Below are positions 1,708-44,000 of a stretch of DNA of 59,415 nt, one piece after another. Under the pieces are notes generated by a model. The model was not told the origin of the DNA, ran no database searches, and was given only the letters and a program-made list of their open reading frames with translations. Every line of letters starts with the position of its first letter. Within the stretch, counting starts at the first letter, position 1. The position numbers and the translations under genes were made by a program. The DNA is from Flavobacteriia bacterium. GTDB lineage: Bacteria; Bacteroidota; Bacteroidia; Flavobacteriales_D; Crocinitomicaceae. The stretch covers positions 1-59,415 of the forward strand of contig CANGZT010000002.1 in assembly GCA_947458955.1 (NCBI GenBank), given 5' to 3'.

Positions 1708-2392
1708 AATTCATATCAAATTGCAGAGCCAATTTATCCTTTAAAATGGCTGAAACTTCTTCGAAATCGAGCTCCCTGCCCAATTCTTGTTGCAAGGAAG
1801 TTACCGATTTATCTTGAATTCCACAAGGAATTATGTGATTAAAATACGACAAATCACTATTTACATTAAATCCGATTCCATGCATGGTAACCCAACGTGA
1901 GCATTTCACACCCATGGCACAAATTTTTCGTTCACGGGGAGTATTCGGTTCAATCCACACACCTGTCAATCCATCAAATCGTTCGCCTTTCACTCCATAT
2001 TCAGCAATGGTGGCAATAACAGCTTCCTCCAAGTAGCGTAAATAACGATGAATATCTGAAAAAAAATAGTCTAAATCTAAAATAGGGTAAACAACCAATT
2101 GACCAGGTCCATGGTAAGTAATATCACCTCCTCGATTGATTTTATAGTATGTAGCTTGATGTGTTTCTAGGGCTTTATTATTCAAAAGCAAATGACTTTC
2201 TTTTCCACTTTTTCCTAAGGTATATACGTGGGGATGTTGACAAAAAAACACATAATTTTTGGTTGGTTCTTCTGTTTCTCCATTCCTACGTGCAATTTTC
2301 GTTGCAATTGTTTTTGCAAAAATTTCTTCTTGAAGATCCCATGCTTCTTTGTAATCAATTACCCCAAGATCTTTGTAAATCACATCTACCAT
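1694..2392 (-). CDS. lipB: octanoyl-[acyl carrier protein]:protein N-octanoyltransferase LipB
   Basis: Transfers octanoyl groups from acyl carrier protein to the lipoyl domains of 2-oxoacid dehydrogenases and GcvH, the first step of endogenous lipoate synthesis; cytoplasmic. Family signatures are clear: RGGDITYHGPGQLVVYP, the catalytic lysine in MGVKCSRWVT and the acyl-thioester cysteine in HIIPCGI. I start the gene at the ATG at 2392 (MVDVIYKDLG, 232 aa). A longer frame would begin at a TTG at 2410, but that codon lies inside a good promoter -7 element (TACTTTTG, 2415 to 2408 on the minus strand). The gene heads the unit with the serine hydrolase and the 136-aa gene. The substrate-ligating partner LipA is not in the window. 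Confidence 0.95.
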   Translation of the reverse strand: MVDVIYKDLGVIDYKEAWDLQEEIFAKTIATKIARRNGETEEPTKNYVFFCQHPHVYTLGKSGKESHLLLNNKALETHQATYYKINRGGDITYHGPGQLVVYPILDLDYFFSDIHRYLRYLEEAVIATIAEYGVKGERFDGLTGVWIEPNTPRERKICAMGVKCSRWVTMHGIGFNVNSDLSYFNHIIPCGIQDKSVTSLQQELGRELDFEEVSAILKDKLALQFDMNYVNE

Positions 2393-2407
2393 CAGTCTTC
2401 TTTTTTT

Positions 2408-2434
2408 CAAAAGTAACTATTTAAGATATAACAA
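2408..2434 (-). promoter_or_regulatory. lipB promoter
   Basis: The minus strand carries TACTTTTG at 2415-2408, a perfect match to the Bacteroidota -7 consensus TANNTTTG. A TTG at 2434-2432, 16 nt further upstream, can act as the -33 element. The start codon at 2392 lies 15 nt beyond the -7 element. Identified by eye from the consensus; no transcription start has been measured. Confidence 0.6.
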
Positions 2435-2562
2435 GGTGTGTAACTTGGTTTAATATAGAAAATAGTTTAGTATTTAAACAAATGAAAAACAGACTATTAA
2501 ACAAATATTGAGAGGTTTAAAAAATATTTAACAAATCAAATACGAATTACCTAGATTTATCA

Positions 2563-2570
2563 TACTTTTG
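2563..2570 (+). promoter_or_regulatory. kup promoter -7 element
   Basis: TACTTTTG matches TANNTTTG exactly and lies 25 nt before the kup ATG. I see no convincing -33 TTG at the usual spacing. The 200-base gap between lipB and kup otherwise holds only AT-rich sequence; I see no riboswitch-like structure in it. Confidence 0.5.
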
Positions 2571-2595
2571 GTATCCTATTTTTTATTTTTTTGAA

Positions 2596-4560
2596 ATGAG
2601 TTCAGAACATAAAACCAAATTAAGCGTCGCAGGTGTACTTATTACGATTGGGATAGTTTTTGGTGACATTGGTACTTCCCCACTATATGTATTTCAGGCA
2701 ATTACAGAAGGAAAAAATTTTTCTGAAGGGATTATTTTAGGCGGTTTATCCTCTGTAATATGGACCTTGATTTTACTAGCTACTATTAAGTATGTTTATT
2801 TTGCATTGAATGCCGATAACAAAGGGGAAGGAGGAATTTTTGCCCTATATGCATTGTTGAAAGATAAAAAAGCAAAATGGATCATCATTCCTACGTTAAT
2901 TGGTTGTGCTTCCTTGTTGGCAGATGGTTTTATTACCCCTGCTATTTCAATTTCAGCAGCAGTTGAAGGGTTAAATAACAAGTATCCTGATTTACCTACA
3001 ATGCCGATTGTTGTTGGAATTATCTTTGCTTTATTCGCTATACAACAATTTGGTACCGTGATCATTGGAAAGGTTTTTGGTCCAATTATGTTGATCTGGT
3101 TTGGATTTTTACTTTACTTAGGAATCATACATATAGCTGATTACCCGGGTATTTTCAAAGCATTGAATCCGTGGTATGCTTATAATATGATTGTAAATGT
3201 GCCTGGAGGTTTTTGGGTATTAGGGGCTGTTTTTCTTTGTACAACTGGTGCTGAGGCTTTGTATTCAGATTTAGGACACTGTGGAAAAGGAAATATTCGT
3301 GTGAGTTGGGGAGTGATGGCTGTGGTGTTGGTAATTCACTATTTAGGTCAAGGAGCGATGGCGTTAAAACCTGGTTTTCATTTACTTCCAAAACAAACGA
3401 TATTCTATGCAATGGTGCCTAAAGGAATGCTTCTTTTTGCTATCGGTATTGCAACAGCGGCTACGATTATTGCTTCTCAAGCTTTAATTACCGGAATCTT
3501 TACCTTGATGAATGAAGCGATTAAATTGAAATTATGGACGAATTTAAAAATTAAATATCCAACAGATCACCACGGTCAGATCTATATTCCTTTTATCAAT
3601 TTTATTTTGATGATGGGTTGTTTATTAGTGATTTATGTATTTAGAACTTCTTCTCAAATGGAGGCTTCTTATGGTTTGGCAATTACCATAAATATGATTA
3701 TGACTTCCATTTTGTTAGTGCTGATGTTATTTGTGCGTTACCCTAAATCAAAATTTATTTTTGCTTTAATTTTTGCCGTTTTCTTTGTAGTTGAGGGTAT
3801 TTTCTTAATGTCAAATTTGAATAAAATTCCTCACGGAGGTTGGTTTACTTTAATTCTAGCGATCTTATTCTTTACAGCACTTTTCATATTTTATAAGGCG
3901 AAACAATTACGTGCAAACATCACGGAATACATACCTATGTCTCGTGTTATTCCGCTTTTAAACAAGGTAAGAAATGATGAAAAAATTCCTTACGAAGCGA
4001 CGAATTTGGTCTATCCAACACGTTCTGCAACTCCTGACCAATTAGATTCAACCGTATTTTTCTCATTATTTAAAAAACGACCAAGAAGAGCAGGTATCGT
4101 TTGGTTCTTACACATTGAAATTAAATCAGATCCTTGGGGTGTAGACTATTCAGTAAACGAAGTGATTGATAAGCATTGTTATCATATTTCAATACAATTA
4201 GGGTTTAAAGAAGAGCACCGTATTGAGTATATGCTTCGCAAAATTCATTACAAAATGGTTGAGCGTGGAGAAATTGAAGGGAAAAGTGTTTTTGAATGTG
4301 TAAAAGGGCACTTCGAAGAACCTGATTTTAAATTCATCATGTTAAGTTCTCGCGTTGCTACAGATAACAAATTAACTCCTTTCCAAATCATAACGGTAAA
4401 AGCCTACCGTTTTATTAAAGCTACAGGGTTGAAAGCAGCAGAAGATTTCGGCTTGGATAAAACGAACGTTATGGAAGAATATGTTCCTATCAATGTGACC
4501 AAGCAATATGAACAAGAACTTCACGAAGAATTTGAAAATTACTCTTGTACAAATAGTTAA
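2596..4560 (+). CDS. kup: KUP/HAK-type potassium uptake permease
   Basis: Inner-membrane K+ uptake protein, presumably K+/H+ symport as in the family. The 654 residues show the KUP order: a conserved first helix with GIVFGDIGTSPLYVFQA at about residues 19-35, about twelve hydrophobic segments up to about residue 445, and a soluble C-terminal domain of some 200 residues. The signatures NKGEGGIFALYALL and GALFLCTTGAEALYSDLGH-like text (here VFLCTTGAEALYSDLGHCG) are intact. The length is normal for the family. The gene ends 6 nt before prfB, so the two are very probably co-transcribed, an unusual partnership with no obvious functional link. Confidence 0.95.
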   Translation: MSSEHKTKLSVAGVLITIGIVFGDIGTSPLYVFQAITEGKNFSEGIILGGLSSVIWTLILLATIKYVYFALNADNKGEGGIFALYALLKDKKAKWIIIPTLIGCASLLADGFITPAISISAAVEGLNNKYPDLPTMPIVVGIIFALFAIQQFGTVIIGKVFGPIMLIWFGFLLYLGIIHIADYPGIFKALNPWYAYNMIVNVPGGFWVLGAVFLCTTGAEALYSDLGHCGKGNIRVSWGVMAVVLVIHYLGQGAMALKPGFHLLPKQTIFYAMVPKGMLLFAIGIATAATIIASQALITGIFTLMNEAIKLKLWTNLKIKYPTDHHGQIYIPFINFILMMGCLLVIYVFRTSSQMEASYGLAITINMIMTSILLVLMLFVRYPKSKFIFALIFAVFFVVEGIFLMSNLNKIPHGGWFTLILAILFFTALFIFYKAKQLRANITEYIPMSRVIPLLNKVRNDEKIPYEATNLVYPTRSATPDQLDSTVFFSLFKKRPRRAGIVWFLHIEIKSDPWGVDYSVNEVIDKHCYHISIQLGFKEEHRIEYMLRKIHYKMVERGEIEGKSVFECVKGHFEEPDFKFIMLSSRVATDNKLTPFQIITVKAYRFIKATGLKAAEDFGLDKTNVMEEYVPINVTKQYEQELHEEFENYSCTNS

Positions 4561-4566
4561 TTTGAT

Positions 4567-5652
4567 ATGGTTAACCAAGATCAACTAAAAGAATTACAAC
4601 AACGCATCCAGGCGATTTCAACCTATTTGAAAATCGAACAAAAACGCATTGAACTTCAAGAAAGCGAATTAAAATCACAAGATCCTACTTTTTGGGATAA
4701 TCCAAAGAAGGCAGAAGCGGATATGAAGCAAATTCGTACGTTGAAATTTTGGATTACTACCTATGAAACTTTAGCATCAGCGTGCGATGATTTAGAAGTC
4801 CTTTTGGATTTTTTCAAAGCAGGAGAAGCAACAGAAGTGGAAGTAGATACAGCCTATGCTGAATTGAAAACCAATGTTGAAGAGTTAGAATTAAAAAACA
4901 TGCTTTCCGGTGAGGAGGACCAATTGAGTGCGGTACTACAAATCACTTCAGGAGCAGGGGGAACTGAAAGTTGTGATTGGGCATCTATGCTCATGCGTAT
5001 GTATACGATGTGGGCTCAAAAAAACAATTACAAACTTACCCAATTAAACTACCAAGATGGCGATGTTGCTGGTATCAAAACAGTAACATTAGAAATAGAA
5101 GGGGATTTTGCCTTTGGTTATTTAAAGGGAGAAAATGGAGTACATCGTTTGGTTCGAATTTCTCCATTTGATTCTAATGCAAAACGCCATACATCCTTTG
5201 CTTCGGTATATGTTTATCCGTTAGTGGATGATACGATTGAAATTAACATTAATCCTGCTGATATTTCTTTTGAAACGATGCGCGCTAGTGGAGCCGGTGG
5301 ACAAAATGTAAACAAAGTAGAAACTGCGGTTCGTTTACGACATGCACCGACTGGAATTATTATCGAAAACTCAGAATCGCGTTCGCAATTAGCCAATAAA
5401 GAGAAAGCAATGCAATTATTACGTTCGCAATTATATGAGTTAGAATTGCGTGCTCGAATGGAAAAACGTAACGAAATTGAAGCCAATAAAAAGAAAATCG
5501 AGTGGGGGTCCCAAATTCGTAACTATGTGATGCACCCATACAAATTAGTAAAAGATGTGCGTACAGGTTATGAATCCGGTAATGTAGAATCTATTATGGA
5601 TGGAGACATCGATGAATTCTTAAAGTCTTATTTAATGACTTTTGGAAGTTAA
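4567..5652 (+). CDS. prfB: peptide chain release factor 2, encoded without a programmed frameshift
   Basis: Recognises UGA and UAA stop codons and triggers peptide release. The 361 residues contain the RF2 tripeptide anticodon SPF at about residues 199-201 ([16 protein letters not shown]) and the catalytic GGQ at about 244-246 ([16 protein letters not shown]). The reading frame is open from the ATG to the stop. At the place where many bacterial prfB genes carry CUUUGA and a +1 frameshift (near codon 22, after the ISTYL segment) there is an in-frame TTG AAA, so expression does not depend on frameshifting. It follows kup by 6 nt. Confidence 0.97.
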
Positions 5653-5666
5653 ATTATCTTCTATAA

Positions 5667-6428
5667 CTACCTCAAACAAAATCCTAATACTGTATCAATA
5701 AATTCATCGGGTTGTTCAGCATGTACCCAATGACCAGCTTCCTGAATGGTTACTAATGAACTATCAGGAAAAACTGCTTCAATGGCATCCCAATCTTCAT
5801 CTAGTATATAGTTGGAAAGTTCTCCTCGAATAAACAAGGTTTGAACCCAATTTTCAGTGATTTCCAATGAAGACAAGATTTCAGTCATTTCGCGTTCTAA
5901 TACATCTACGTTCATTCGCCATGCTAATTGTCCTTTCTCTTTCCAATATAAATTTTTTAGTAAGAATTGTCTTACTCCATACGAATCTACAAAAGGTAAG
6001 AGCGACTTTTCAGCTTCTGAACGAGAGGCTACATTTTCCAAAGGAACAGAACGAATACCTTTGATTATTTCATTGTGGTGCATTGGATATTGTTTAATAC
6101 CGATATCTACCACAATCATTTTTTCTAATTTTTCGGGAAATTTATGTGCATACCACATGGCAGTTTTACCCCCCATGGAATGTCCCATCAAAATAAATTT
6201 ATCAATGTCCAAATGATTCATCAAACGATCTAAATCATTTGCCATGAGATCATACGTGAATTCTTCGTGCCAATCTGAATGACCGTGATTGCGTTGGTCT
6301 ACTAAAATAACACGATAATAGGAAGCAATTTTTTTCGCATGTGTTTGCCAATTATCTGAATTACCAAACAAACCATGTAAAATCACAAAAGGAGTACCTT
6401 CTCCTAATTCACGATAATGAAGTAACAT
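5667..6428 (-). CDS. alpha/beta hydrolase, YbfF-like esterase
   Basis: A 253-residue cytoplasmic alpha/beta-hydrolase. The oxyanion segment ILHGLFGNSDNW is near the N-terminus, the nucleophile elbow is GHSMGG at about residues 82-87, and the catalytic histidine lies in EAGHWVHAEQPDEF near the end. The pattern DQRNHGHSDW matches the YbfF/acyl-CoA-thioesterase-like esterases. The substrate is not predictable. The start codon directly follows the stop of the HMA-like lipoprotein gene (6429), so the two form an operon; their functional relation is not obvious. The gene converges on prfB with a 14-nt gap. Confidence 0.88.
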   Translation of the reverse strand: MLLHYRELGEGTPFVILHGLFGNSDNWQTHAKKIASYYRVILVDQRNHGHSDWHEEFTYDLMANDLDRLMNHLDIDKFILMGHSMGGKTAMWYAHKFPEKLEKMIVVDIGIKQYPMHHNEIIKGIRSVPLENVASRSEAEKSLLPFVDSYGVRQFLLKNLYWKEKGQLAWRMNVDVLEREMTEILSSLEITENWVQTLFIRGELSNYILDEDWDAIEAVFPDSSLVTIQEAGHWVHAEQPDEFIDTVLGFCLR

Positions 6429-11913: not shown

Positions 11914-13560
11914 ATGTTGAATATGAGATTTTTAAATAAGTTTTTGTTGTGTTTCATTTTGTTTTTTTGCCTGCATAATAATATCCTTGCACAAGGAAGC
12001 TCATATTTTGATAAGTCAGGGAAACCAACAACAGCTGAAAATGCATACTACAGCAGAAAATTAGTTTCAGGGGATACTTATCAAAGTTTTTATACGAATG
12101 GAAACATTTATTTTGAGGGTAGAATTCTAAAACTTGATAAAACAGGAGATTATAATAATACCTATGTAGGTACTTGTAAATGGTATTATAAAAATGGTAA
12201 AAATAAGGTCACTAAAACTTTTGATGAAAAAGGAATTGAAAATGGGATATCAATTTATTACTATGAAACAGGTAAAGTATGGAAAGAAATAACTTATGTG
12301 AATGGTAAAATAAAGGATAATACCTTTGTTGAGTATGACGAGAATGGAGTTGCTAACCGAATATTTGAAGAGGATTTTATAAATAATTTAAATGATTGGG
12401 ATGTTTATGAAAGTGATAAAAGTAAGGCCATTATTGCTGGAAATGTACTCGAAATAAAAAGTAATACAGCACAAGGTACTTCCAGATTCATTAGCGTGCC
12501 TACTGAGGGATCTGATATTATTATAGAAGGATTGATAGATGTTTCAACTCTTGCACCAAGTTCTAAAGCTGGAATTATTTTTGGGTTCAAAGACTGGCAG
12601 AATTATAATTTTTTCTTAATTACGCAAAGTACCTTTTATGTAGGAACAGTTTTTGAAGGTTTGAGCGCGATTAAGGCTGAAGATATGTATACTAGTGCTG
12701 TTCTTAAAACGGGGTTCAATAATTTAAAAATATTAAATATTGGTGATAAAAGTGTTTTTTCCATCAATGGTGAAGTACAATTCACTACTGATAGTTATCG
12801 ATTATACGGTCCTAAAATTGGTTTTATAGTAAGTGGAAAAAATACAATTAAGATTGACAAATTGATTACTAAAGAAATGGACATTAATCATAATGGTAAT
12901 CAATCAGTTGATAAAACAGATCAAAATGTAAAATCGACAGGTTCTGGAATCATGATAAGTAAAGATGGTTATTTAGTTACTAATTATCATGTGATTGAGG
13001 ATGCAAAGGGAACAGTAATGGTTGAAATTACACGCGATGGTACAACTAAAAATTTTAAAGCATCTGTTATTAAAAGTGATAAAGAAAACGATTTAGCCAT
13101 TTTGAAGATTGAGGATTCCGATTTTAAACCTTATGCTAAAATCCAATATGCTTTCAAAGATAATGGTTCTACTGATGTAGGTTCAATGGTTTATACTATT
13201 GGTTTTCCAATGGCTTTAGCAGGAATGGGTAAAGAAGCAAAATTTACAGATGGTAAAGTAAGTTCAAAAACAGGATATAATAATGCAATTAATTCATATC
13301 AAACTTCTGTACCGGTTCAACCTGGAAATAGTGGAGGCCCATTGTTTGATGAGAAAGGGAAGTTGATAGGTGTCATTAACGCTAAGATTAAAGATGGTGA
13401 TAATGTTTCTTATGCAATTAAGTTGAATTATATTAAGAATTTGATCGAGATTCTTCCAGATTCATTTGAATTACCAAATGATAGTTCTACATCGTTATTA
13501 TCTGTACCAGAACAGGTTAAAATATTATCGAACTACGTTGTATTGATCAAAATTAAGTAA
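11914..13560 (+). CDS. exported MORN-repeat / lectin-like / trypsin-like serine protease fusion
   Basis: The 548 residues show three modules after a signal peptide (to about residue 27). Residues about 45-145 are MORN/YwqK-like repeats (YTNGNIYFEG, WYYKNGKN, YYYETGKVWKE, YDENG). Residues about 150-310 form a beta-rich region like concanavalin/LamG-type domains (GIIFGFKDWQNYNFFLI). Residues about 330-520 are an S1C (DegP/HtrA-like) protease with His359 in LVTNYHVIEDA, Asp393 in ENDLAILKI and Ser473 in VQPGNSGGPLF, so it should be active. There is no PDZ domain. An ATG at 11923 is an alternative start. First gene of an operon with the next two. Confidence 0.85.
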   Translation: MLNMRFLNKFLLCFILFFCLHNNILAQGSSYFDKSGKPTTAENAYYSRKLVSGDTYQSFYTNGNIYFEGRILKLDKTGDYNNTYVGTCKWYYKNGKNKVTKTFDEKGIENGISIYYYETGKVWKEITYVNGKIKDNTFVEYDENGVANRIFEEDFINNLNDWDVYESDKSKAIIAGNVLEIKSNTAQGTSRFISVPTEGSDIIIEGLIDVSTLAPSSKAGIIFGFKDWQNYNFFLITQSTFYVGTVFEGLSAIKAEDMYTSAVLKTGFNNLKILNIGDKSVFSINGEVQFTTDSYRLYGPKIGFIVSGKNTIKIDKLITKEMDINHNGNQSVDKTDQNVKSTGSGIMISKDGYLVTNYHVIEDAKGTVMVEITRDGTTKNFKASVIKSDKENDLAILKIEDSDFKPYAKIQYAFKDNGSTDVGSMVYTIGFPMALAGMGKEAKFTDGKVSSKTGYNNAINSYQTSVPVQPGNSGGPLFDEKGKLIGVINAKIKDGDNVSYAIKLNYIKNLIEILPDSFELPNDSSTSLLSVPEQVKILSNYVVLIKIK

Positions 13561-13563
13561 AAC

Positions 13564-14403
13564 ATGAAAAATATATTATTCTTAATTTTTGTAATGTTTA
13601 TTGCCATTACCTATGGCCAAAACAAGAATCAAAAAAATCAACCTGCTACTAATTTTAAAGCAAATGATTTGGATCAAACATATACTCCGCCAGTAAATTC
13701 AATTTTTGATGAAGACTCAAAGAAAAATAATGTAAACACCGCTGCTATAGCAGATTTTAGAAATGTAATTCGATTCAATCCGTTTTTATTAGCGAGAAGT
13801 ATTGCGGCTATTGGTTATGAAAGATCTTTAAATGACTACATTGGACTGGAGGCGTATTTGGGTTATTCTTATAAACTTGATTGGATCCAGGCAATAAGTA
13901 TTGCAGTTAGTGGGAATGATTTTTCGATGGGAGAAAATAAATCAGTGATTGGCGTGAATGATATGATTGTTAATGGTACATTTAAATCTGGAGGATCTTA
14001 CGGTAGTATCGGTACAAAAATATATATGGATGGCTCACCTTATGATGGTAGTTATTTTGGAATACAAGTAAGATATAATTCATATAATTTAAATTTAAAA
14101 AATGAAAATTTTAGTCCATATAATTTTCTTTCATCATTAGATGAGACTACAAACATTAGAAATATCACAACAGTTTTTCAATGGGGAACTTCAGTGACTG
14201 GTGGCACTTCAAAATTACCCGTAATTCATGAATTTTATACAGGTATAGGTATCAGAAGTTCTTCTTATGATGTATATAGTCAAAAGGATATAGATGGTTT
14301 TAATGAACCAAGATATTTTAAAACAGATCAACGTGAAAGTCAAATAGGATTTTCTTACGTTGTAGGTTATACATTAGGATTCGGATTTAAATCAAAAAAA
14401 TAA
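13564..14403 (+). CDS. exported outer-membrane beta-barrel-like protein
   Basis: The 279-residue product has a short signal peptide (ILFLIFVMFIAITYG), a polar linker rich in Asn and Lys to about residue 60, and then repeated amphipathic strands with Gly and aromatic residues, ending in GYTLGFGFKSKK. No family recognised beyond the barrel pattern. It starts 4 nt after the protease gene, so co-expression with the protease fusion is near certain. It might be its membrane partner, which is inference. Confidence 0.72.
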   Translation: MKNILFLIFVMFIAITYGQNKNQKNQPATNFKANDLDQTYTPPVNSIFDEDSKKNNVNTAAIADFRNVIRFNPFLLARSIAAIGYERSLNDYIGLEAYLGYSYKLDWIQAISIAVSGNDFSMGENKSVIGVNDMIVNGTFKSGGSYGSIGTKIYMDGSPYDGSYFGIQVRYNSYNLNLKNENFSPYNFLSSLDETTNIRNITTVFQWGTSVTGGTSKLPVIHEFYTGIGIRSSSYDVYSQKDIDGFNEPRYFKTDQRESQIGFSYVVGYTLGFGFKSKK

Positions 14404-14415
14404 ATATAAAATAAA

Positions 14416-16077
14416 ATGAAAAAACAATTTTTTCTACTATTATTCATTTTTGCAACATTTCAAATGCGTGCACAAGAAATGAAATTGACTTGGTCTCAAG
14501 AATTAAAGATGTCTAAGAAAACAGGATTCTACAATACGATACTTGGAAGAAATGACAATTTATTATATGTAAAGTTTTCTACATTAAGAAAGATCAGAAT
14601 AACTGCTTTCGATAAAGTAACGATGAAAGAAAAATTCACAGTACCAGTCAAAGGATTTCCTGAAAATAAAGCAACTAAAGCAGACTTTAAAGATTTAGAT
14701 TATTACAGAACAATCATCTTCAGTAATTCAATTTACACTTTTTGGGTAAAAGAAAGTAAAGAGAAAGATGAATTATTTGTTCAAACATACGATGCAACTC
14801 TTAAAATTTCAAAGCCTTTAAGAAAAATCTATGAATTAAAAACTTTTAAAGGGGCTAAGAAAAAAGCTGAATTATTTATTATGGTGAATAAATCTTTAGG
14901 AGAAAAGATTTTAATCGGTGGTGAAACAGCTGGAAATAAAGGAGATAACGTAAAAGTTGAATATAAAATCTTAAATGCAGATTTTACATTTTCGAATGCT
15001 GGTCAAGCTGAATTACCTTTACAGATTACTGGTAGATCAAATAGTTTATCTTCAAGTTATAGTTTTGGTGATGATGGAAACCTACACGTTAAATCAGATA
15101 AAACATTAACGATTATTAATTTAGAGAAAGGTTCTAAAGAAACGTATCTTGTTGAGTTTAAAAACAAACAAATTTTTGATTTTGATTATATATATGATCA
15201 AAATACGATACGTGTTTTTGGTTTATTTTGTGATTTAACGAAGGATAAAAGTGGAAATGACAATCATGGTATTTTCTATGCTATCATTAACAGTAGTACT
15301 TTAAAGCTTGAAAGCGAGAATTTTACTTATTTCACAAAGGATCAATTAGATAAACTTTTTGCTGAAGATCAATCTGACAGAAAAGACTCAAAGTTATTTC
15401 AATCAAAAAAGAGTAAAGATTCTGAGGATCAATCTTTAAAAACAAATTATACAGTTGAAAATGTATTAAAGGATGGAAAAGATTTAATTTTAATTTGTTC
15501 AATTATGTATAACTACACAGTTACATATACAACAACGAATTCAAATGGTACAACGTCAACAAGACAAGAACCTAGATGTAATAAACGTAACTTGACTGTT
15601 TTTAGAATAAATGATAAAGGTGAGATCCAATGGGCTACTAACGTAAATAGAAGCATTACTTATCCTAGACACTTTGTTTATGATATAAATTCTATCAAAA
15701 AGGACAACATGATATATGTTACCTATGGGTCTGATTTTATTACAGATAAAGATGTAAAGAAAAAGAAAAAATGCTGTTCAATTAATGTTGCTGCTGCTAA
15801 AGAAATGAGAGATAAAATTGCTTATGCTACTTTTGATTTGGTTACAGGTGTTGCAAGTGTTAAAGAAATCGTTGTAAATCAACCAAAAACTCCTAAAAAA
15901 GAACGTAAACAAGTTGATCCAACAAATATTGAAACATTAGGTGGTGATTTTTATATAGTTTCTGAAAAGTATAATTTACCTTCAAATTCTATATTAGGAT
16001 TAATTTTTAGATCTGGAAAATTACAGATGGGTTATACAACGATTAACTCTGTATCGGCGCCTCAACCAAAAAAATAA
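14416..16077 (+). CDS. exported protein of unknown function, 553 aa, possible beta-propeller
   Basis: No family recognised. A signal peptide (FFLLLFIFATFQMRA) is followed by about 530 residues of regularly repeating beta-strand text (LYVKFSTL, NSIYTFWVKES, KILIGGETAG, TIRVFGLFC, DLILICSIMYNY, NMIYVTYGSD), which suggests a propeller. A Lys-rich stretch leading to an adjacent CC pair lies near residue 455. There is no T9SS sorting domain at the C-terminus. Third gene of the protease operon, 12 nt after the barrel gene. Its stop directly abuts the stop of the convergent gene, and its terminator lies inside that gene (16122-16161). Confidence 0.7.
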   Translation: MKKQFFLLLFIFATFQMRAQEMKLTWSQELKMSKKTGFYNTILGRNDNLLYVKFSTLRKIRITAFDKVTMKEKFTVPVKGFPENKATKADFKDLDYYRTIIFSNSIYTFWVKESKEKDELFVQTYDATLKISKPLRKIYELKTFKGAKKKAELFIMVNKSLGEKILIGGETAGNKGDNVKVEYKILNADFTFSNAGQAELPLQITGRSNSLSSSYSFGDDGNLHVKSDKTLTIINLEKGSKETYLVEFKNKQIFDFDYIYDQNTIRVFGLFCDLTKDKSGNDNHGIFYAIINSSTLKLESENFTYFTKDQLDKLFAEDQSDRKDSKLFQSKKSKDSEDQSLKTNYTVENVLKDGKDLILICSIMYNYTVTYTTTNSNGTTSTRQEPRCNKRNLTVFRINDKGEIQWATNVNRSITYPRHFVYDINSIKKDNMIYVTYGSDFITDKDVKKKKKCCSINVAAAKEMRDKIAYATFDLVTGVASVKEIVVNQPKTPKKERKQVDPTNIETLGGDFYIVSEKYNLPSNSILGLIFRSGKLQMGYTTINSVSAPQPKK

Positions 16078-16881
16078 TTAGTATTTGAAATTTAAAGGGT
16101 AAGCATTTAAAATTTCACTGTAAACGGTTTCGCAAATATTAGCGAGACCGTTTCTTTTTTTATTTAGTTTATCATGAATTAATTCTTCGGTTAATATCGA
16201 ATTACCTTGATAAAATTTCAACCAATAGACTAAACTAAATCCAATTGCGTTGATGTATAAATTATGCCTTAGTAATTCGAATACAGCATAAGTAGAAACT
16301 CCAGTAAGTGCGAATGAAGTGATTCCTTTTATTTTATTTCCTAATAAGTATGTTCCTAACCCAGGAATAATCTTAGAATATTTCACTAATTTACTTGATT
16401 GTTTTTCCTCTATTGATAACGAATCAAGGCAATTTAAACCAATAAATAAGGAGTCGAATTGAATCAAATTATTTACAAATATTTTTCTTAATTCTTTGTT
16501 GTCTTTGTATATAAAAAATTTTAAAAGTTGAATATGAATACTTGTATCTTCTGATACTTTAACATAGTTAGATTCATAGTTTTTAGCAAAATTTAATTCT
16601 TTGTTTATTAGAGATATAAGTGCCATGTTCCAAAGAAAATGATTAAGTATATCTTTATTTTTTATAAAATTTTGGTTAATTCTTTTACCAAGTTCAAAGG
16701 TTGTACTATCTATCAATTGGTTTCTTAAGCAATAGTTGAATTTTTCTATTAATACATTGTTTTTTGCAGTATCATTTTTCGCAACTAAATACTGCATCTC
16801 ATAATTAACTAGAGTTGAAACGTCTTGTGAGAGAATTTTAGTACTAAAAAGCAGAAGACTGCAAATAATAATTTTGAACAT
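16078..16881 (-). CDS. exported membrane protein with IIPGLG motif, paralogue-like to its upstream neighbour
   Basis: The 267 residues comprise a signal peptide (IIICSLLLFSTKILS), a helical periplasmic stretch of about 145 residues, the motif SKIIPGLGTYLLGNKIKG (IIPGLG at 171-176) and hydrophobic segments after it, ending with a polar tail. The PGLG-x-x-x-x-G start of a membrane hairpin recalls DUF5683/TM2-type domains. Its start overlaps the end of the next gene by 38 nt, and that gene overlaps yidD by 4 nt. Function unknown. The 3' part of the coding sequence contains, on the opposite strand, the terminator of the convergent operon. Confidence 0.72.
   Translation of the reverse strand: MFKIIICSLLLFSTKILSQDVSTLVNYEMQYLVAKNDTAKNNVLIEKFNYCLRNQLIDSTTFELGKRINQNFIKNKDILNHFLWNMALISLINKELNFAKNYESNYVKVSEDTSIHIQLLKFFIYKDNKELRKIFVNNLIQFDSLFIGLNCLDSLSIEEKQSSKLVKYSKIIPGLGTYLLGNKIKGITSFALTGVSTYAVFELLRHNLYINAIGFSLVYWLKFYQGNSILTEELIHDKLNKKRNGLANICETVYSEILNAYPLNFKY
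16122..16161 (+). terminator. intrinsic terminator of the protease operon, embedded in the convergent gene
   Basis: A 12-bp stem with one G-U wobble, AAACGGTTTCGC (16122-16133) with GCGAGACCGTTT (16142-16153), and an 8-base loop. It is followed by C and seven T on the plus strand only. It lies entirely within the coding sequence of the 267-aa gene on the minus strand. Confidence 0.82.
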
Positions 16882-17620
16882 TAAATATAAATTCTAGTTG
16901 TTTTTCTTTTTTTACTTCTTTTAAATCAAAATAGGAACCTACAATATTTGCTAAATAGTAGGTAGATAAAAACCCAAAAGTGATGAAGGTATACGGATTA
17001 TATATACCAAGTACATATACTGATTCAACAAATTTAGAGCCAAGCAAAATATGGGCAGAAAAGACATTTCTAAATGAGTATTTTCTGCCATTATATAATT
17101 TTCCCAATCCTGGAATTATTGCTGAATATAATGCAGATATAATTGGTTTTTTAGAACGATACTTAATATATTCTTTATAATTCTTCCTTAACTCTGTTGC
17201 AATAAGAATCGTATCTACAGATTTTTCATTTAAAAGTATTTTTGCTAAATTTTTGAATTGTTTCGATACAGTATCTTCCAAATGATTTAGTTTATTATTA
17301 AACCAAACTTTCTTAAGTGAATCATTCAATTGTAAAAAGTGTAGATTTAATCTTAAATAAAAGCTTCTATCTGAAACAATTAGTTTTTCCGCTAATTCAA
17401 AATTTTTTATTATTTCTGTGTTTTGATTTTGATTTAATTGATTTAATATTTTAAAATAGGCTAAAGAGTCTGGATTTATCCCTACGGTGTCATAGTTTAG
17501 AACATATTCAAATTCTCTAAATAATTTATTTTTAAATAAATGATTTAATAAGTCAGATTTAGTTTGTGTAAATGAATTTAAACTGATGATAAAAAAATAT
17601 ATTAGTAACTCTTTTTTCAT
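16844..17620 (-). CDS. exported membrane protein with IIPGLG motif (DUF5683-like C-terminus)
   Basis: The 258 residues show a signal peptide (LLIYFFIISLNSFTQ), a helical, Asn/Lys-rich periplasmic region of about 140 residues, then SALYSAIIPGLGKLYNGRKY (IIPGLG at 168-173) and hydrophobic segments to about residue 230. The SAxxPGLGxxYNxxY text is what I know from DUF5683-like Bacteroidota membrane proteins. Architecture and motif position closely parallel the downstream 267-aa protein, suggesting an old duplication. It overlaps yidD by 4 nt (ATGA) and the downstream gene by 38 nt. Function unknown; a role alongside YidD at the membrane is inference. Confidence 0.75.
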   Translation of the reverse strand: MKKELLIYFFIISLNSFTQTKSDLLNHLFKNKLFREFEYVLNYDTVGINPDSLAYFKILNQLNQNQNTEIIKNFELAEKLIVSDRSFYLRLNLHFLQLNDSLKKVWFNNKLNHLEDTVSKQFKNLAKILLNEKSVDTILIATELRKNYKEYIKYRSKKPIISALYSAIIPGLGKLYNGRKYSFRNVFSAHILLGSKFVESVYVLGIYNPYTFITFGFLSTYYLANIVGSYFDLKEVKKEKQLEFIFNVQNYYLQSSAF

Positions 17621-18033
17621 CGAAAGTTTATTATTTTTTCATCCTTATTTATTTTGAAATCAGGGTAATCATAAATTGCTGATGGTATACAGTTATTCAA
17701 TTGATGAAAACCAAGTAATGTCCCTCTAATAATACCATATTTCTGGATACTAAATTTTGCATATTGAGAGCAACTAATTTCATACATACAGTCTGCTTGT
17801 ATTTGTTCTGAAATTATATTTTGATAGGTAATTAATAAACCAGCTGACAGGTAGAATAAAGGATTCAATTTTCCAATTGTTGATTTTGGTTTTTCTAATA
17901 TTTTTCTTTTTTCTTTTGGTTTGTAAGAAAATTCAGAAAAGGTTTGACTTAGTAAATTATTTTTAATCGATGCATTTTGAGAAAATAAATTCAATGATAT
18001 TATACATAAAAACATTAAAATTATATTTCTCAT
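17617..18033 (-). CDS. yidD: YidD-family membrane protein insertion efficiency factor with N-terminal signal peptide
   Basis: The YidD core lies at residues 66-128: LLITYQNIIS, then Cys82 and Cys88 in DCMYEISCSQYAKFSIQKYG, and Cys115 in QLNNCIPS. This matches the family pattern CxxxPxCSxYAxxAIxxxG followed by a late cysteine. Most YidD proteins are about 70-90 residues and sit between rnpA and yidC; this one has 138 residues with an export-type signal (NIILMFLCIISLNLFS) and a 45-residue charged linker before the core, and sits away from rnpA/yidC. It leads an operon with two IIPGLG membrane proteins, so a specialised role at the inner membrane is likely. Confidence 0.85.
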   Translation of the reverse strand: MRNIILMFLCIISLNLFSQNASIKNNLLSQTFSEFSYKPKEKRKILEKPKSTIGKLNPLFYLSAGLLITYQNIISEQIQADCMYEISCSQYAKFSIQKYGIIRGTLLGFHQLNNCIPSAIYDYPDFKINKDEKIINFR

Positions 18034-38082: not shown

Positions 38083-41000
38083 TTACATACCGCCTAAGTT
38101 CAGTCTTAAACGAATACCTGCCATGGTATTTGCAGTAGGGTATGATGTTGCAATTTTAGGACGATTTAATACTTGATCAAAGTACATTTGCGCAGTTAGA
38201 TTAGGACCTAAGTTGTAATCTAATGAAGATTTGATAGAAATAACGCGTTGACCCGCTGTTGCTTGGTTTGTATTATCTACTATTTTTCTAATAACTGTGG
38301 AATTATCTCTAAAGGAAAAGTCAAATCGAACATTGAGGTCATTTTCAAGTGTTTTACCTTGTAATTTGAAAGGCATTTTTACCTTTGAAAATTTCACTCC
38401 TGATCCAACTACCCATTCTTGACTGAAAATTTCAGTTACTTGTTGGTTTGATAAAGCAAGTGATGCATTTCTGTCTTTTTTGTATTCTATTTTGGTAATT
38501 AAACCTTGCCCAAGGAAATTCCATGTGGCATCAATCCCTAAAAGGGGGGAGAATTTTTCGGAAATTGTTACGTTTTGAATTTGGTATTGAGCAATAAAAT
38601 TATTGTCCAAATCAAATGTTGTTGGGTTGCCTTGTTGGTCTAATTCTGATTTTAAATTGGTTTGTATTCCAGATAAACTAACAGATGCATTGTATGAATG
38701 CCTTAAAACAAAAGATTTTGCATATTTTTTAATTAAAGCATATTTGGTTAAACCGCTATAGTTGATAGACCAATTTGGAAGTGGCATAGCAGAAAGTGGA
38801 TTAATATTTCGGCTATTTAATTTGTTACTAGTGTAGGATGTTAAAAAAGCTCCAATTAATACTTCTTGTTGTGTTGAGCCATAACCTTCAGCAAATCCAT
38901 TTACTTTTTTGGTAGAATTTTGGTTTTTATCTCCTAGTAGGTTACTAACTAGTTGTCTATTATTTCTTAAGTCTGAAAACGCGCTTGACGAATAATCTTT
39001 TCCAATTGTAGCAAATGCAGAACGTAAAGTTACCGTTGAATAGGTTAGGGTACCTGTTTCAACTTTACTTTGACTTCCAAATTTTTGAGTAGAGTCGTTC
39101 CATCTATAAAAATCACTTGCATTTAAAGTATAATTTCGATTCGCAGAAAATTCGATAGCGATATCCTTGAGAGGCTCTACCGTAGCTCTAGCAGACATAT
39201 TTTGGCTAAATGAAAGAGTATGTTGTTTATTCAAGGCGCTGTTTTTAACTAGCCAATTATTTTGAGCTGCAATTGATGCAAAATCATAATTTGTTTTATT
39301 ACCAAATACATCGAATGTTTGTTGACCGAAAATAAATCCAGTGAGATCAGGTTGATTTAGATTTGGAGTTCCTAATAAGCGAGTATCTTGATTATAACCA
39401 GGTAATAAAGTTCCATTATTCAAAGAATAGGTTCCAGATACTGAACGAACAGCGAGTAAAGCTCTTGTACCAAAACCTATGATAGGATTAACAGGTTCTT
39501 TTAATCTTTTTTCTCTTTTTTCTCTCCTTTTTTCTTTTCTACGAATTCGATCTTCTTTTCGTTTTTCTTTTTTTGTAAGCTCATTATAAGGTTTACCAAA
39601 AGAAGTCATATTTGGATCTTTTTTCTTAATCGTTGAATTTGTTGAGTTATTAGTTGGTGATTTATTTGTGTTACTGCTAGTTAGTATTTTTTTAAAGAAT
39701 TTAGACTTTGAATATAAATTAGTCATATTCATTGTTGCATTAAATGATACTACTCGGCTATTTTGAATGGTGTTACCAAAGTTACTTTGTCCTAAAGGCG
39801 CACGTTGCCAGTTATAATTTCCAGCATATTTTATGGATGAGTTTATCCAATCTGTTAAAGGTAATTTGTCTAAAGGTAAATTATAACTTAACGAATAATC
39901 ATGTGAGTAATCCATTGTTTTACCAAAAGTTTTCATTTGAGTTTTGATAGAGTCAATAAAAACTTGGTAAAGTAGAGGGTCTAATTTTTTATCTACTCGT
40001 CCATCTGCTTCATCGAAGATAGACCGATCATTGGCGTTGAAAGTGAATTTGAGATTTTTGGTAATATCGTAACCAAAATTATAGGAACGATTCCAATTAA
40101 AGGATTTTACATAAACTGGTGAAAACTCAAATGAAGAAAGATTATTCCTTACTTTTCGTTCATTGTAATTTCGTTGAACATCATTATTAATTGAAATGAT
40201 TTTTGGTGTAAGATAAAAATTAGCATCTCTTATTAAGCTCCACCATTTTGATTTTTGCATGAATTTCACCTTTTTAAAAGGTTCAACTGGTTTTGCGGTG
40301 AAACTATAGGTGTAGATTAGATTACTTTTCCAAGATTTAGTTCTATCGTATTCAGTATTAAAATCACGTCTAAACGTCTCATTAAAACCATAAGAAATGG
40401 CAAAGTTCGATAAATTCCAAAAATGTGGTTTCGCGTCTGGATTAGCTTCTTTTTTAACGTTTGAAAAGTTATAAGACCTTCTTTCAGTGAAGTCTTGACC
40501 TAATTTTGCGTTTTTTAATTTTTGTTCAAGTGGATAATCATTTAGTTTAATATCTGGGTTGAATGGATCATATTCAGGATTGACAATACCCAATGAATAA
40601 CCATAATAAAAGGGCAGTGATAATTTCAATTTATTACCTAAGAACTGGCCAAGTTGCATGTTTGTACTAAAATCAAAACCCATTTGTTCGTTTCGTTGTC
40701 TTTCTTGAACTCGGCTTTCTAAAGTTCCCCAATTTACACCACTATAATTTCCAGACATAGATACATTTGCAAAATCTGCTGCTTGTACTTGCACTTTGGC
40801 TACTGCAGCAGATCCACCTGCATTTTGAAAGTCTGTTAGTCTTAATTCATTAATCCAAACAAATGCACACTTCGTTAACCCATCGTCAGCACCAAATTTA
40901 TTCGTAGCTTTCGATGGATTCCGAACACCTATCATGATTGTTTTAATTGCTTGAATATTTGGACTTCCTTTGATTTTAATTTGTCTAGTGGAATTTGAAG

Positions 41001-44000
41001 GGTCTGGAATACTATATTCTTGAGTAATTGAAACTCCAGAATTATTTCTTTGTTTTTTAGCTTCTAGTAAATTATCAAATATTATTTCCATATTATTTGT
41101 TTCTGGCCAAACATCTTCTGGTGAATTTGCTCCCCAAGGAGTAACATTCATAGGTAATTCATATTCATAATAATTGTCTGTGTAGTCAGTACCTAATCGA
41201 ACAAATAAAGTTAAATCTCCATTTTTTAAAGGTGCTGATTTAGATAATTCTTCTGCGTGAACAAACATCTTTAATTTTTTATATGTTCTCACATCAAACA
41301 CAACATTCTTAAAAGCCGCTTTTGCATTACCATCGTCCAAATTACATACTTCAAATGAAAGCGCTTGTTCGTTCATTTGACGCTGTTGAACTTGTGTGGG
41401 ATCGATTTCTCTTAAAATACCAGGAGGTAATTGATAATTAATTGGATTTCGTTGTGCATTTTCTTCAATATTTACTGCAGCGATATTAAATACAGAACTA
41501 TTTGGGTCTTTTTGAATGTTTTCTCCAGGTAAGCTTAGATCACCATTGTATTTTCTCCATTCTCCTCTGATAAATTCTAATCGGGCAAATCTAAGTACCA
41601 CTTCTTCATTCCATTCTTTTAAGAACATACGCATAAAACGAATAGATCTAAAATCGGAAATACCATTTACAATTTTTTCTGGTTCTCTAACTGGAATTTT
41701 GAACTGAATCCAACGTTCAGTTTTATTTCCTGTTGTATATGTCTGGATGTTTGTAATGTAATTTTTACCAACTTGTAAATCATTTCTTCGTAAGCTGACT
41801 TTATATTGATAGTAACTTTCTGTTTCAGAAAGGTTATTATCTTGATTTAAGTCTTCTATATCTGGTTGGTTCGTAGCTTGAGTTGGGTAACCAGCTGCGT
41901 TTATGGTAGCAGACATTTCTGGGGTTGGTGAGTTCCCCTGTGTATTGTTAAATTTTTTATATCTTTCTAAGATATTCGCTTTGTCTGCATCGTATTGGTC
42001 ATCAGCATAATATTTATAATCATCAGAGGATGGGTCATTGATCATCCGATTTTTAACTTCCTGTGTTAGGTTTGGATTTTTATTCACCCAAGTCACATAT
42101 TTTTGAAAGTGTGTCTTTTCTTGTTCGTTATCCCATCCATCTAATCCAACATCTTGTAATTTTCGTGTTGTGGGATCATTGTCAAAAGCGTTTACAACTA
42201 TATTTTGTGTTGATACCCTTGCCCATTGTGTTGTATCAATATTATCTGAAACAGATGTGCTTGTTGGCAGTCCATTTTCAAACTCTTTTCTAGAGTCTGG
42301 AATAACATCTTCCGAAATATTTCCTAAGTTAAAGTATAAATCTCCTCCAGAGTGCAGTGTGTTTGGATCCGCTTTTTCGGCATCTTCGTTGAAAGGATCT
42401 AATACCCAAAATTGAATAAACTCTATGTTAGAAAGTTCAAAATCATTAGTTGATAATGCACGCATAATTCCGCCCCATTTATTTTCAGGATTGGTAAATT
42501 TTCCAAGTTTATCTAAGATCGATAGTGTATCATAATTATACATACCTCGTTCTTGCGGATAGTAAGCTAATTCCAAAATCGGAATATTGGTAAAGGTTCC
42601 GTATTGTTGTTGTAAATTTGGAAAAATGTCTTTTTGATTGACCATGCGCATACGGCTATCCACAAGCATGGATGGATCTTTTTTTACGTTTTCTGGAGTT
42701 AACGTCGAATTTTGGTAAAACATAGGATCAATTAGATACCATGCGGTTTTTGATCTGTTAAATCCTGTGTTTAAATTTTTAGATGTTGCTTCAGGGAACA
42801 ATGTGGGCTGTCCTTGTGGAATACTTGCCATTTTCCATGCAGAAGGAGTTCTTAAATCAATGGTACTTTGACTTCCTTCGAAATCGTCTACATAAGACAT
42901 TCCTGAACCAGTTATAACACGTGGAACACCTGGAATTAAATGGGCAACCTCACCCGTAAATGAGATGGAAGATTTGGAACGTGTTGAAATACCAGGTAAT
43001 AAATCCACCAATTTAGTCAAAAATGGTAATTCTCTTTTTATGGATAGATCAAGTCCAATTAAATTGTTTTTAAAGGGTTCAGAACCCATATCTACTTTCT
43101 GAGTGATAGGTCTTTCAACCATTCGCATCCAAGTCGCCCCAAGATTAAAGTCTTTATCAAATCGATAATTGAAGTGAGTTCCAATTAAAGAGCGTGCTTG
43201 AAATCCAAATACGGAGTTACTTTCAACAGATACTTTGATTGGTGTATTAGATTCTAATACACCACTATTTAAAATTTTTACTCTGCCTAAATTGTAGTCA
43301 ACAGTATAGTCTGTACCTTCTACTAATTTCACGCCACCTGCAGTTACCGATACCGCACCTTGAGGAACGTTTAAAGCATTAAGAGGAATATCTGAACTTA
43401 CAGAAGATTGATATTGTCCTTTAAATATAAATCTGTTTTTAGACGGAATTTGTTGAGCTGCTGTTTTCGTTGAATCATAGAGTTCTGTATAAGCAATTTT
43501 ATTTACTACAGATTCTGCAATTCCTTTAGATAACATTTTCTTTTTCAATGTATTTCCAAATGGCTCTATCGTAGTAAAATAAACCCTACCATTTTTGGAA
43601 TTGATTGTCCCTGCATTATCTGTTTTATTTCCACTAAAGTTGATGGGTACAAAGTCGAATAAACCATCTGAAAAAGGTTGATTATTCATGTTTAATTTAT
43701 CCATCCCGAGGAGGGTAACCAACTGAATTTTATCTAAACCGTTATAGGGAAAGAAATTAACTGGTAAACTCGTTGAAGGATTATTATAAAGCACATCCAA
43801 TCTAAAACCTGTTTTATCTAATTGATAAGCACCAATTGAATACACGTTTTTCATCATTAAATCCCAAATATGTGACTTAGGATTAGTTAAGGTAGGTTTT
43901 AATAATTTTAGGAAAAGTGCTTGTTTTCCATCTATTCCGTCCGTTGAAAATTGACCTACTTGGTATGTTTTTCCTTGGTAAGTATATTCATAGGCAACAG

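Follow-up and report, generated by a model that had tools for sequence, protein, structure and literature searches.

What would a YidD protein, known as an insertion factor of the cytoplasmic side and to our knowledge poorly known in its molecular role, be doing with a signal-like N-terminus and two partner genes of its own? The question is raised by three minus-strand genes in the 59,415-nucleotide stretch of DNA analysed here (the window), which we have labelled yidD2 (17617–18033, 138 residues), pglA (16844–17620, 258 residues) and pglB (16078–16881, 267 residues), these names and that of a neighbour, P4, being coined in this analysis. The open reading frames of yidD2 and pglA overlap by 4 nt (17617–17620) and those of pglA and pglB by 38 nt (16844–16881), as the sequence-only reading of the locus had it, and its description of a YidD domain, a charged linker, signal-like starts on all three proteins and an IIPGLG motif in both partners is likewise borne out. 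YidD2 is the only one of the three to pass a Pfam cut-off (PF01809, E 5.3e-12, 45.8 bits where the cut-off is 27; TIGR00278, E 2.2e-12), and consists of a signal-like N-terminus (residues ∼1–19), a basic linker with many K, E, R and P residues, and the YidD domain (residues 65–118) with cysteines at positions 82, 88 and 115. PglA has a signal-like N-terminus, a TPR-like helical part (residues ∼20–140), the PGLG motif at residues 170–173 (IIPGLG at ∼168–173) and a weakly hydrophobic helical hairpin; its paralogue PglB follows the same plan, with a TPR-like part at residues ∼16–155 and PGLG at 173–176 (IIPGLG at ∼171–176).

Signal-like starts were called by a simple hydropathy rule, a hydrophobic 11-mer with K or R near the start, rather than by SignalP. 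Across loci of the window type, the window counted, the rule is satisfied by 24/26 YidD2, 25/26 PglA and 24/24 PglB proteins, counts that are biased towards a positive call since the starts of the relatives were picked partly by hydropathy; a YidD2 that fails (L052) is cut by the start of its contig. These starts suggest export of YidD2, PglA and PglB, and from them we infer signal-peptide cleavage and placement on the periplasmic side of the membrane.

Within the order to which the window belongs, YidD matches at E ≤ 1e-12 were found in 21 of 399 genomes, 17 of which carry the full-length long form (E below 1e-30), while the remaining four (five places: L035, L067–L070) hold short forms without pgl neighbours. 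A closer set of 59 relatives, including the window genome, has a long YidD in four members and a pglA match in exactly these four, adjoining the long YidD. A short YidD is also present in three of the four, the fourth being the window genome itself, which is 60% complete and has a single YidD match; YidD2 thus appears as an exported-looking addition to the short form, in keeping with the earlier view of it as a dedicated YidD. The same reading set YidD2 against the usual place of yidD beside rnpA/yidC; distance from rnpA is not distinguishing here, since short yidD and rnpA also lie on different draft contigs in three genomes (G001, G020 and G044). No rnpA match was obtained in the incomplete window genome, and in a few other loci short yidD adjoins an open reading frame that resembles rnpA on visual inspection.

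Scanning named genome contigs gave 14 loci, every one from a metagenome-assembled genome. Two of these bins bear the operon under the titles Chitinophaga pinensis (L040) and Actinomyces viscosus (L045), labels that look wrong. After removal of duplicates (L032, L033, L054, L055 and L057, equal to L040, L047, L041, L045 and L042, respectively) the window-type set comprises 26 loci, the order not being established for those known from the named-contig scan alone. A same-strand pglA follows yidD2 in all 26, and a same-strand pglB follows pglA in all 24 with enough sequence; L058 and L060, cut by contig ends, enter neither the pglB counts nor the pgl tree. With starts placed by codon and hydropathy, yidD2 and pglA overlap by 0–35 nt, and pglA and pglB by 23–62 nt in 24/24 loci.

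The arrangement extends well beyond this order. A phylum-wide scan of 395 genomes yielded one distant long form, in genome G588, with the same three genes; the profile used, A4 (15 YidD2 sequences), matched 16 of the 395 at E ≤ 1e-11, the operon being seen in the window genome and G588 only, with five of the other 14 fetched and nine judged from the result table alone. When the G588 YidD2 was searched against 241 genomes of its own order, 19 matches were recovered, 17 long forms and two short forms. Each of the 17 long forms has pglA and then pglB behind it, on its own strand and in the order seen in the window, with a pglA/pglB overlap of 53–80 nt (17/17, starts by the codon and hydropathy rule), and both short forms have no partner genes. 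A mixed profile, A7, applied to 148 genomes of the phylum matched 93, nearly all short forms, and neighbours were read at 14 fetched places. Two of these, in genomes of another class (G534 and G511; L131 and L132), show a full-length long form in the order LolA-like gene, yidD2, pglA, pglB, on one strand and in overlapping frames. The operon order is accordingly known at 26 window-type loci, 17 of another order and two of another class; pglB comes next in 43/43 loci of sufficient length across all three lineages, and the pglA/pglB overlap is kept in 41/41 loci measured (23–80 nt). Because the arrangement recurs in other lineages, chance open reading frames and a one-strain peculiarity, the latter a doubt attached to the original observation, are ruled out.

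The mixed-profile scan also revealed a natural fusion. In genome G507 (L135) a single 400-residue open reading frame combines a signal-like start, a YidD domain (PF01809, E 8.5e-16) and a PGxG part with the motif PGSG, which matches the pglA profile over residues 134–397 (E 4e-14) and Pfam DUF5683 at E 0.62 only. Fusion of two neighbours, placing both domains behind one signal-like start, is indirect evidence of a physical partnership. A PEGA-domain gene (PF08308, E 5.8e-9; 4154–4624) stands immediately before the fusion gene (4599–5801). The other 11 of the 14 places (L133, L134 and L136–L144) have no pgl neighbours, save a match at E 0.008 in L143 that we take as chance, and none were seen at five phylum-scan loci with a longish YidD frame (L088–L092). 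L133 and L134 have long frames as well, which we judge to be products of chance in GC-rich DNA and not further fusions. At L142 a LolA-like gene (E 4.9e-4) lies ∼2.3 kb from a short yidD.

How far has YidD2 departed from its family? An alignment of 41 YidD2 sequences (26 window-type, 15 G588-order) with 47 short YidD rows shows YQ, S, three cysteines and G..G kept in nearly all rows of both kinds; the three cysteines and YQ..S are invariant (100%) throughout YidD2 and canonical YidD, apart from the Q of YQ, which falls to 93% in the G588 rows. The canonical rows are close to invariant at several further positions (P after IS 97%, R of CR 97%, P of PTC 100%, W 87%, G 93–97%, D 95%, P 95%), whereas in the 26 window-type YidD2 other residues are commonest at the P after IS, across CR..PTC and in the HPWGG.G.DP tail. 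Further on, an R shared by every canonical and every G588 row (100%) gives way to Q in 96% of the window type. Two residues past the shared S, the YidD2 of both sets have Q without exception (100%), at a position where another residue is commonest in short forms. In a tree of 70 columns, from which the near-copies L093 and L094 were left out, YidD2 forms one side of a branch with an SH-aLRT of 93, under the tool's threshold of 95. Since it lacks residues present in almost every canonical row, the YidD2 of the window may no longer have the canonical activity.

The two partners prove to be an old pair. Comparison of the pglA profile (alignment A2) with the pglB profile (A3) by hhalign gives a probability of 97.1 and E 6.9e-11 over 227 columns, which upholds the earlier claims of similarity and of a duplicated partner by profile comparison and not by superposition of models. 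A tree of 76 rows, built without the near-copies L093, L094 and L101, places pglA on one side and pglB on the other with support of 100/100, each side uniting window-type and G588-order loci; eight rows are flagged in it for unusual composition, and two branches as long. Judged by these comparisons, pglA and pglB are paralogues, and their duplication predates the split of the window-type and G588 lineages because the tree groups pglA of both against pglB of both. The PGxG motif is present in 38/38 pglA and 38/38 pglB.

AlphaFold2 models of both proteins are helical (mean pLDDT 89.4 and pTM 0.75 for PglA, 87.5 and 0.68 for PglB) and end in a short helix at PGxG, then a helix of 23–25 and one of 48–52 residues. 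Residues 18–150 of the PglB model align with the TPR chain 3edt_D (Z 11.4, rmsd 3.6, 132 aligned) and the N-terminal part of PglA more weakly with 4gpk_K (Z 8.2, rmsd 5.7, 150 aligned), values to be read with the caution that for helical repeats a Z under ∼13 may reflect a common helical arrangement alone. Pfam TPR models match below cut-off only, in L131 (TPR_16, E 1.9e-4), and Foldseek returned nothing at E ≤ 0.001 for either model. The C-termini, previously described as hydrophobic, turn out to be only weakly so: Kyte-Doolittle 19-mers lie mostly under 1.6, with medians of the best 19-mer of 0.79–1.46, whereas the LGT and VTT proteins taken as controls peak at 2.31 and 2.56. Insertion of these hairpins into the membrane is therefore uncertain.

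The genes flanking the operon differ between lineages. In 14/17 G588-order loci and in both loci of the other class, the operon is led by a LolA-like gene, immediately upstream and of the same strand. Its assignment is tentative, as 10/11 of the leading-gene proteins match LolA_like in Pfam below cut-off (best E 2.1e-5; 13.4–19.7 bits against a cut-off of 30 in three proteins; E 0.07–0.08 for L131 and L132), and no clear relative was found in the PDB. Among the 241 G588-order genomes, a profile of the leading gene matched strongly in 14 (E below 1e-95), all bearing yidD2, and weakly in two yidD2-negative ones; closeness is to be expected of a profile built from these same proteins, but not that it should find next to nothing in the remaining 224 genomes. 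In the order of the window, 36 genomes, including 17 that carry the operon, gave no match to the same profile. The search had no positive control, and divergent members may escape a G588-order profile; even so, the window itself offers no ground for claiming a carrier. A TM2-type gene lies convergent and downstream of pglB in 16/17 G588-order loci (for example L087, 4447–4899), Pfam confirming the three tested. At L097 and L099 a gap of ∼720 nt separates yidD2 from pglA; in L097 it contains a VTT-domain gene (PF09335, E 1.2e-16), and the gap of L099 is of the same size. An LGT gene is found upstream of yidD2 in both, and in L097 the stretch with these features spans 2387–5755. LGT relatives also occur near short yidD (L082, 1471–2819; L030, 1495–3054).

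On the other side of pglB in the window, with a 0-nt gap, lies the convergent plus-strand gene P4 (14416–16077), encoding an exported-looking protein of 553 residues of no known family. It is preceded by a gene for a 279-residue protein (13564–14403, plus strand) with a signal-like start, barrel-like by eye only and without a Pfam match, and by one for a MORN-repeat protein with a trypsin/HtrA-like protease domain (11914–13560, plus strand; PF13365, E 3.9e-27). All three (11914–16077) have signal-like starts and are repeatedly found as a group next to the operon in some window-type loci, the 279-residue cluster with P4 in 10 loci and the protease cluster in nine, and in L044 and L050 they are placed differently, still near one another. 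P4 falls inside the fetched flank at 20/26 window-type loci, not always directly adjacent, and a profile made from operon-linked P4 proteins matches at E ≤ 1e-60 in 17/17 operon genomes against 11/382 others. At E ≤ 1e-10 it also matches 64 of the same 382 genomes, and P4 turned up near only one of the 17 G588-order loci (L108) and in neither L131 nor L132. It is likely that P4 is associated with the operon in the window's order and lies outside its core. The gene looks split or truncated in L034 (9608–11316) and L042 (4699–5151). Elsewhere in the window, the minus strand carries an open reading frame of 2427 residues (38083–45366).

We also considered a mobile or defence element and rejected it: PADLOC gave YidD2 one Cas6 match at E 0.019 and nothing for the other four proteins submitted. 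Among viral contigs there were 55 pattern matches and no relative among them, and in plasmids the window YidD2 found partial YidD matches only (under 60% identity, 11 records), with none for the G588-type YidD2 at E 1e-8 or for the LolA-like protein at E 1e-3. Searches of solved structures by sequence returned none for YidD2, PglA or P4 and weak unrelated matches for PglB. In the open-access literature, which leaves subscription papers and preprints mostly uncovered, we found no published description of an exported YidD with a PGxG operon.

These observations lead us to propose that YidD2, PglA and PglB form an envelope complex on the periplasmic side of the membrane that serves membrane-inserting or lipid-linked clients, a proposal we regard as evenly poised between right and wrong. 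All three proteins would be exported with their soluble domains in the periplasm; YidD2 would rest against the periplasmic face of the membrane by way of its conserved YidD helices, the PglA–PglB pair would be held in or on the membrane by its PGxG hairpins, and the TPR-like domains would bind a client or carrier. The complex would be roughly a periplasmic counterpart of cytoplasmic YidD, helping such a client to enter or leave a membrane, with the LolA-like protein as the likely carrier where it leads the operon and with P4 and the genes next to it as possible sources of clients or partners in the order of the window. The conserved gene order and overlaps suggest coupled translation of the subunits of one complex, and together with the fusion in L135, the old paralogy, the TPR-like folds, the LolA-like leader and the VTT gene of L097 they speak for the proposal, of which the complex is the likely part. 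Against it count the sub-threshold LolA-like label, the failure of the leading-gene profile to match in the window's order, the E of 0.62 that Pfam gives the PGxG part of the fusion, the weak hydropathy of the hairpins and the loss of motifs from YidD2; likeness to TPR proteins, for its part, is compatible with many functions. VTT proteins are a lipid-handling family, and with the LolA-like leader in two lineages the VTT gene at one locus prompts the guess that the clients are lipid-linked or amphipathic, insertion or transfer activity being a guess as well. The earlier idea of an insertion device finds partial support. It is conceivable, if somewhat doubtful, that the operon goes back to an early Bacteroidota machine in which a YidD moved across the membrane would have joined a LolA-like carrier and a PGxG–TPR pair to insert or transfer such clients, the window's lineage having lost the carrier and gained P4.

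The same weak hairpins, whose helices mostly stay under the usual hydropathy threshold, could be read another way, with YidD2 as a private insertion aid for PglA and PglB, and the pair itself doing another job. The position of yidD2 directly before pglA, overlapping it in most loci, would fit, as would the YidD–PGxG fusion; such an aid alone leaves both the LolA-like leader in two lineages and the long-kept A/B duplication unexplained, and we consider it unlikely. Less probable still is that the unit serves a single cargo system, for instance a surface or secretion apparatus made up with P4, the 279-residue protein and the MORN/trypsin protease. The frequency of P4 near window-type loci and its strong matches throughout the operon genomes speak for such a link, but its rarity beside the operons of the other lineages makes it look like a one-lineage accessory, and its relatives also occur in genomes without the operon. 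An envelope set of structural or stress-related function, in which the YidD domain would be a mere membrane-binding module without any role in insertion or transfer, would accommodate the loss of canonical motifs in the window type and the scaffold nature (TPR-like, PGxG) of the other recognisable parts. We hold it to be quite improbable, as the three cysteines, YQ, S and G..G are retained in nearly all YidD2 and canonical rows alike, which suggests a kept function. An exported-looking YidD paralogue with fixed partners, fused to a PGxG domain in one genome, offers a way to probe the partners and chemistry of YidD outside the ribosome/Sec/YidC setting. Were the carrier link true, Bacteroidota, with their many surface proteins, would also be shown to have a new route of transfer in the envelope.

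Several characterised systems invite comparison with the operon. The TPR-like part of PglB resembles YfgM in the PpiD-YfgM structure (8zht_B; Z 9.8, rmsd 4.5, 137 aligned) and BamD (2yhc; Z 9.7, rmsd 13.1, 154 aligned), a general TPR likeness exceeded by many unrelated TPR chains, and we know of no PGxG hairpin in either protein. By reading, the short motif followed by a two-helix hairpin recalls TM2 (PF05154), whose type of gene adjoins the G588-order operons, yet PglA and PglB are not members (best E 0.096–0.11). The label DUF5683-like given to the partners at the outset holds in part: the PGxG opening domain resembles PF18935, with sub-threshold matches in 12/15 window-type PglA (the window's at E 7.7e-4 and 19.9 bits) and in the PglB of L087, L095 and L131, but the pgl proteins always stay under the curated cut-off of 26.7 bits, carry an additional TPR-like part and, among window-type PglB, give 0/15 matches, that of the window included. 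LolA and LolA_like (PF03548, PF17131) are resembled, below cut-off, by the operon-leading gene of the other lineages. Two papers (PMC8082313, PMC6822775) describe E. coli YidD as a membrane insertion factor, with reference to Yu et al. 2011, and PMC13066512 also treats YidD. With this canonical family (PF01809, TIGR00278) YidD2 shares a domain above the cut-offs and the conserved cysteines, YQ, S and G..G; it differs from the short form, which has no exported N-terminal extension, by its signal-like start, its linker, its two PGxG partner genes and, in the window type, the replacement of the P, CR..PTC and HPWGG.G.DP positions.
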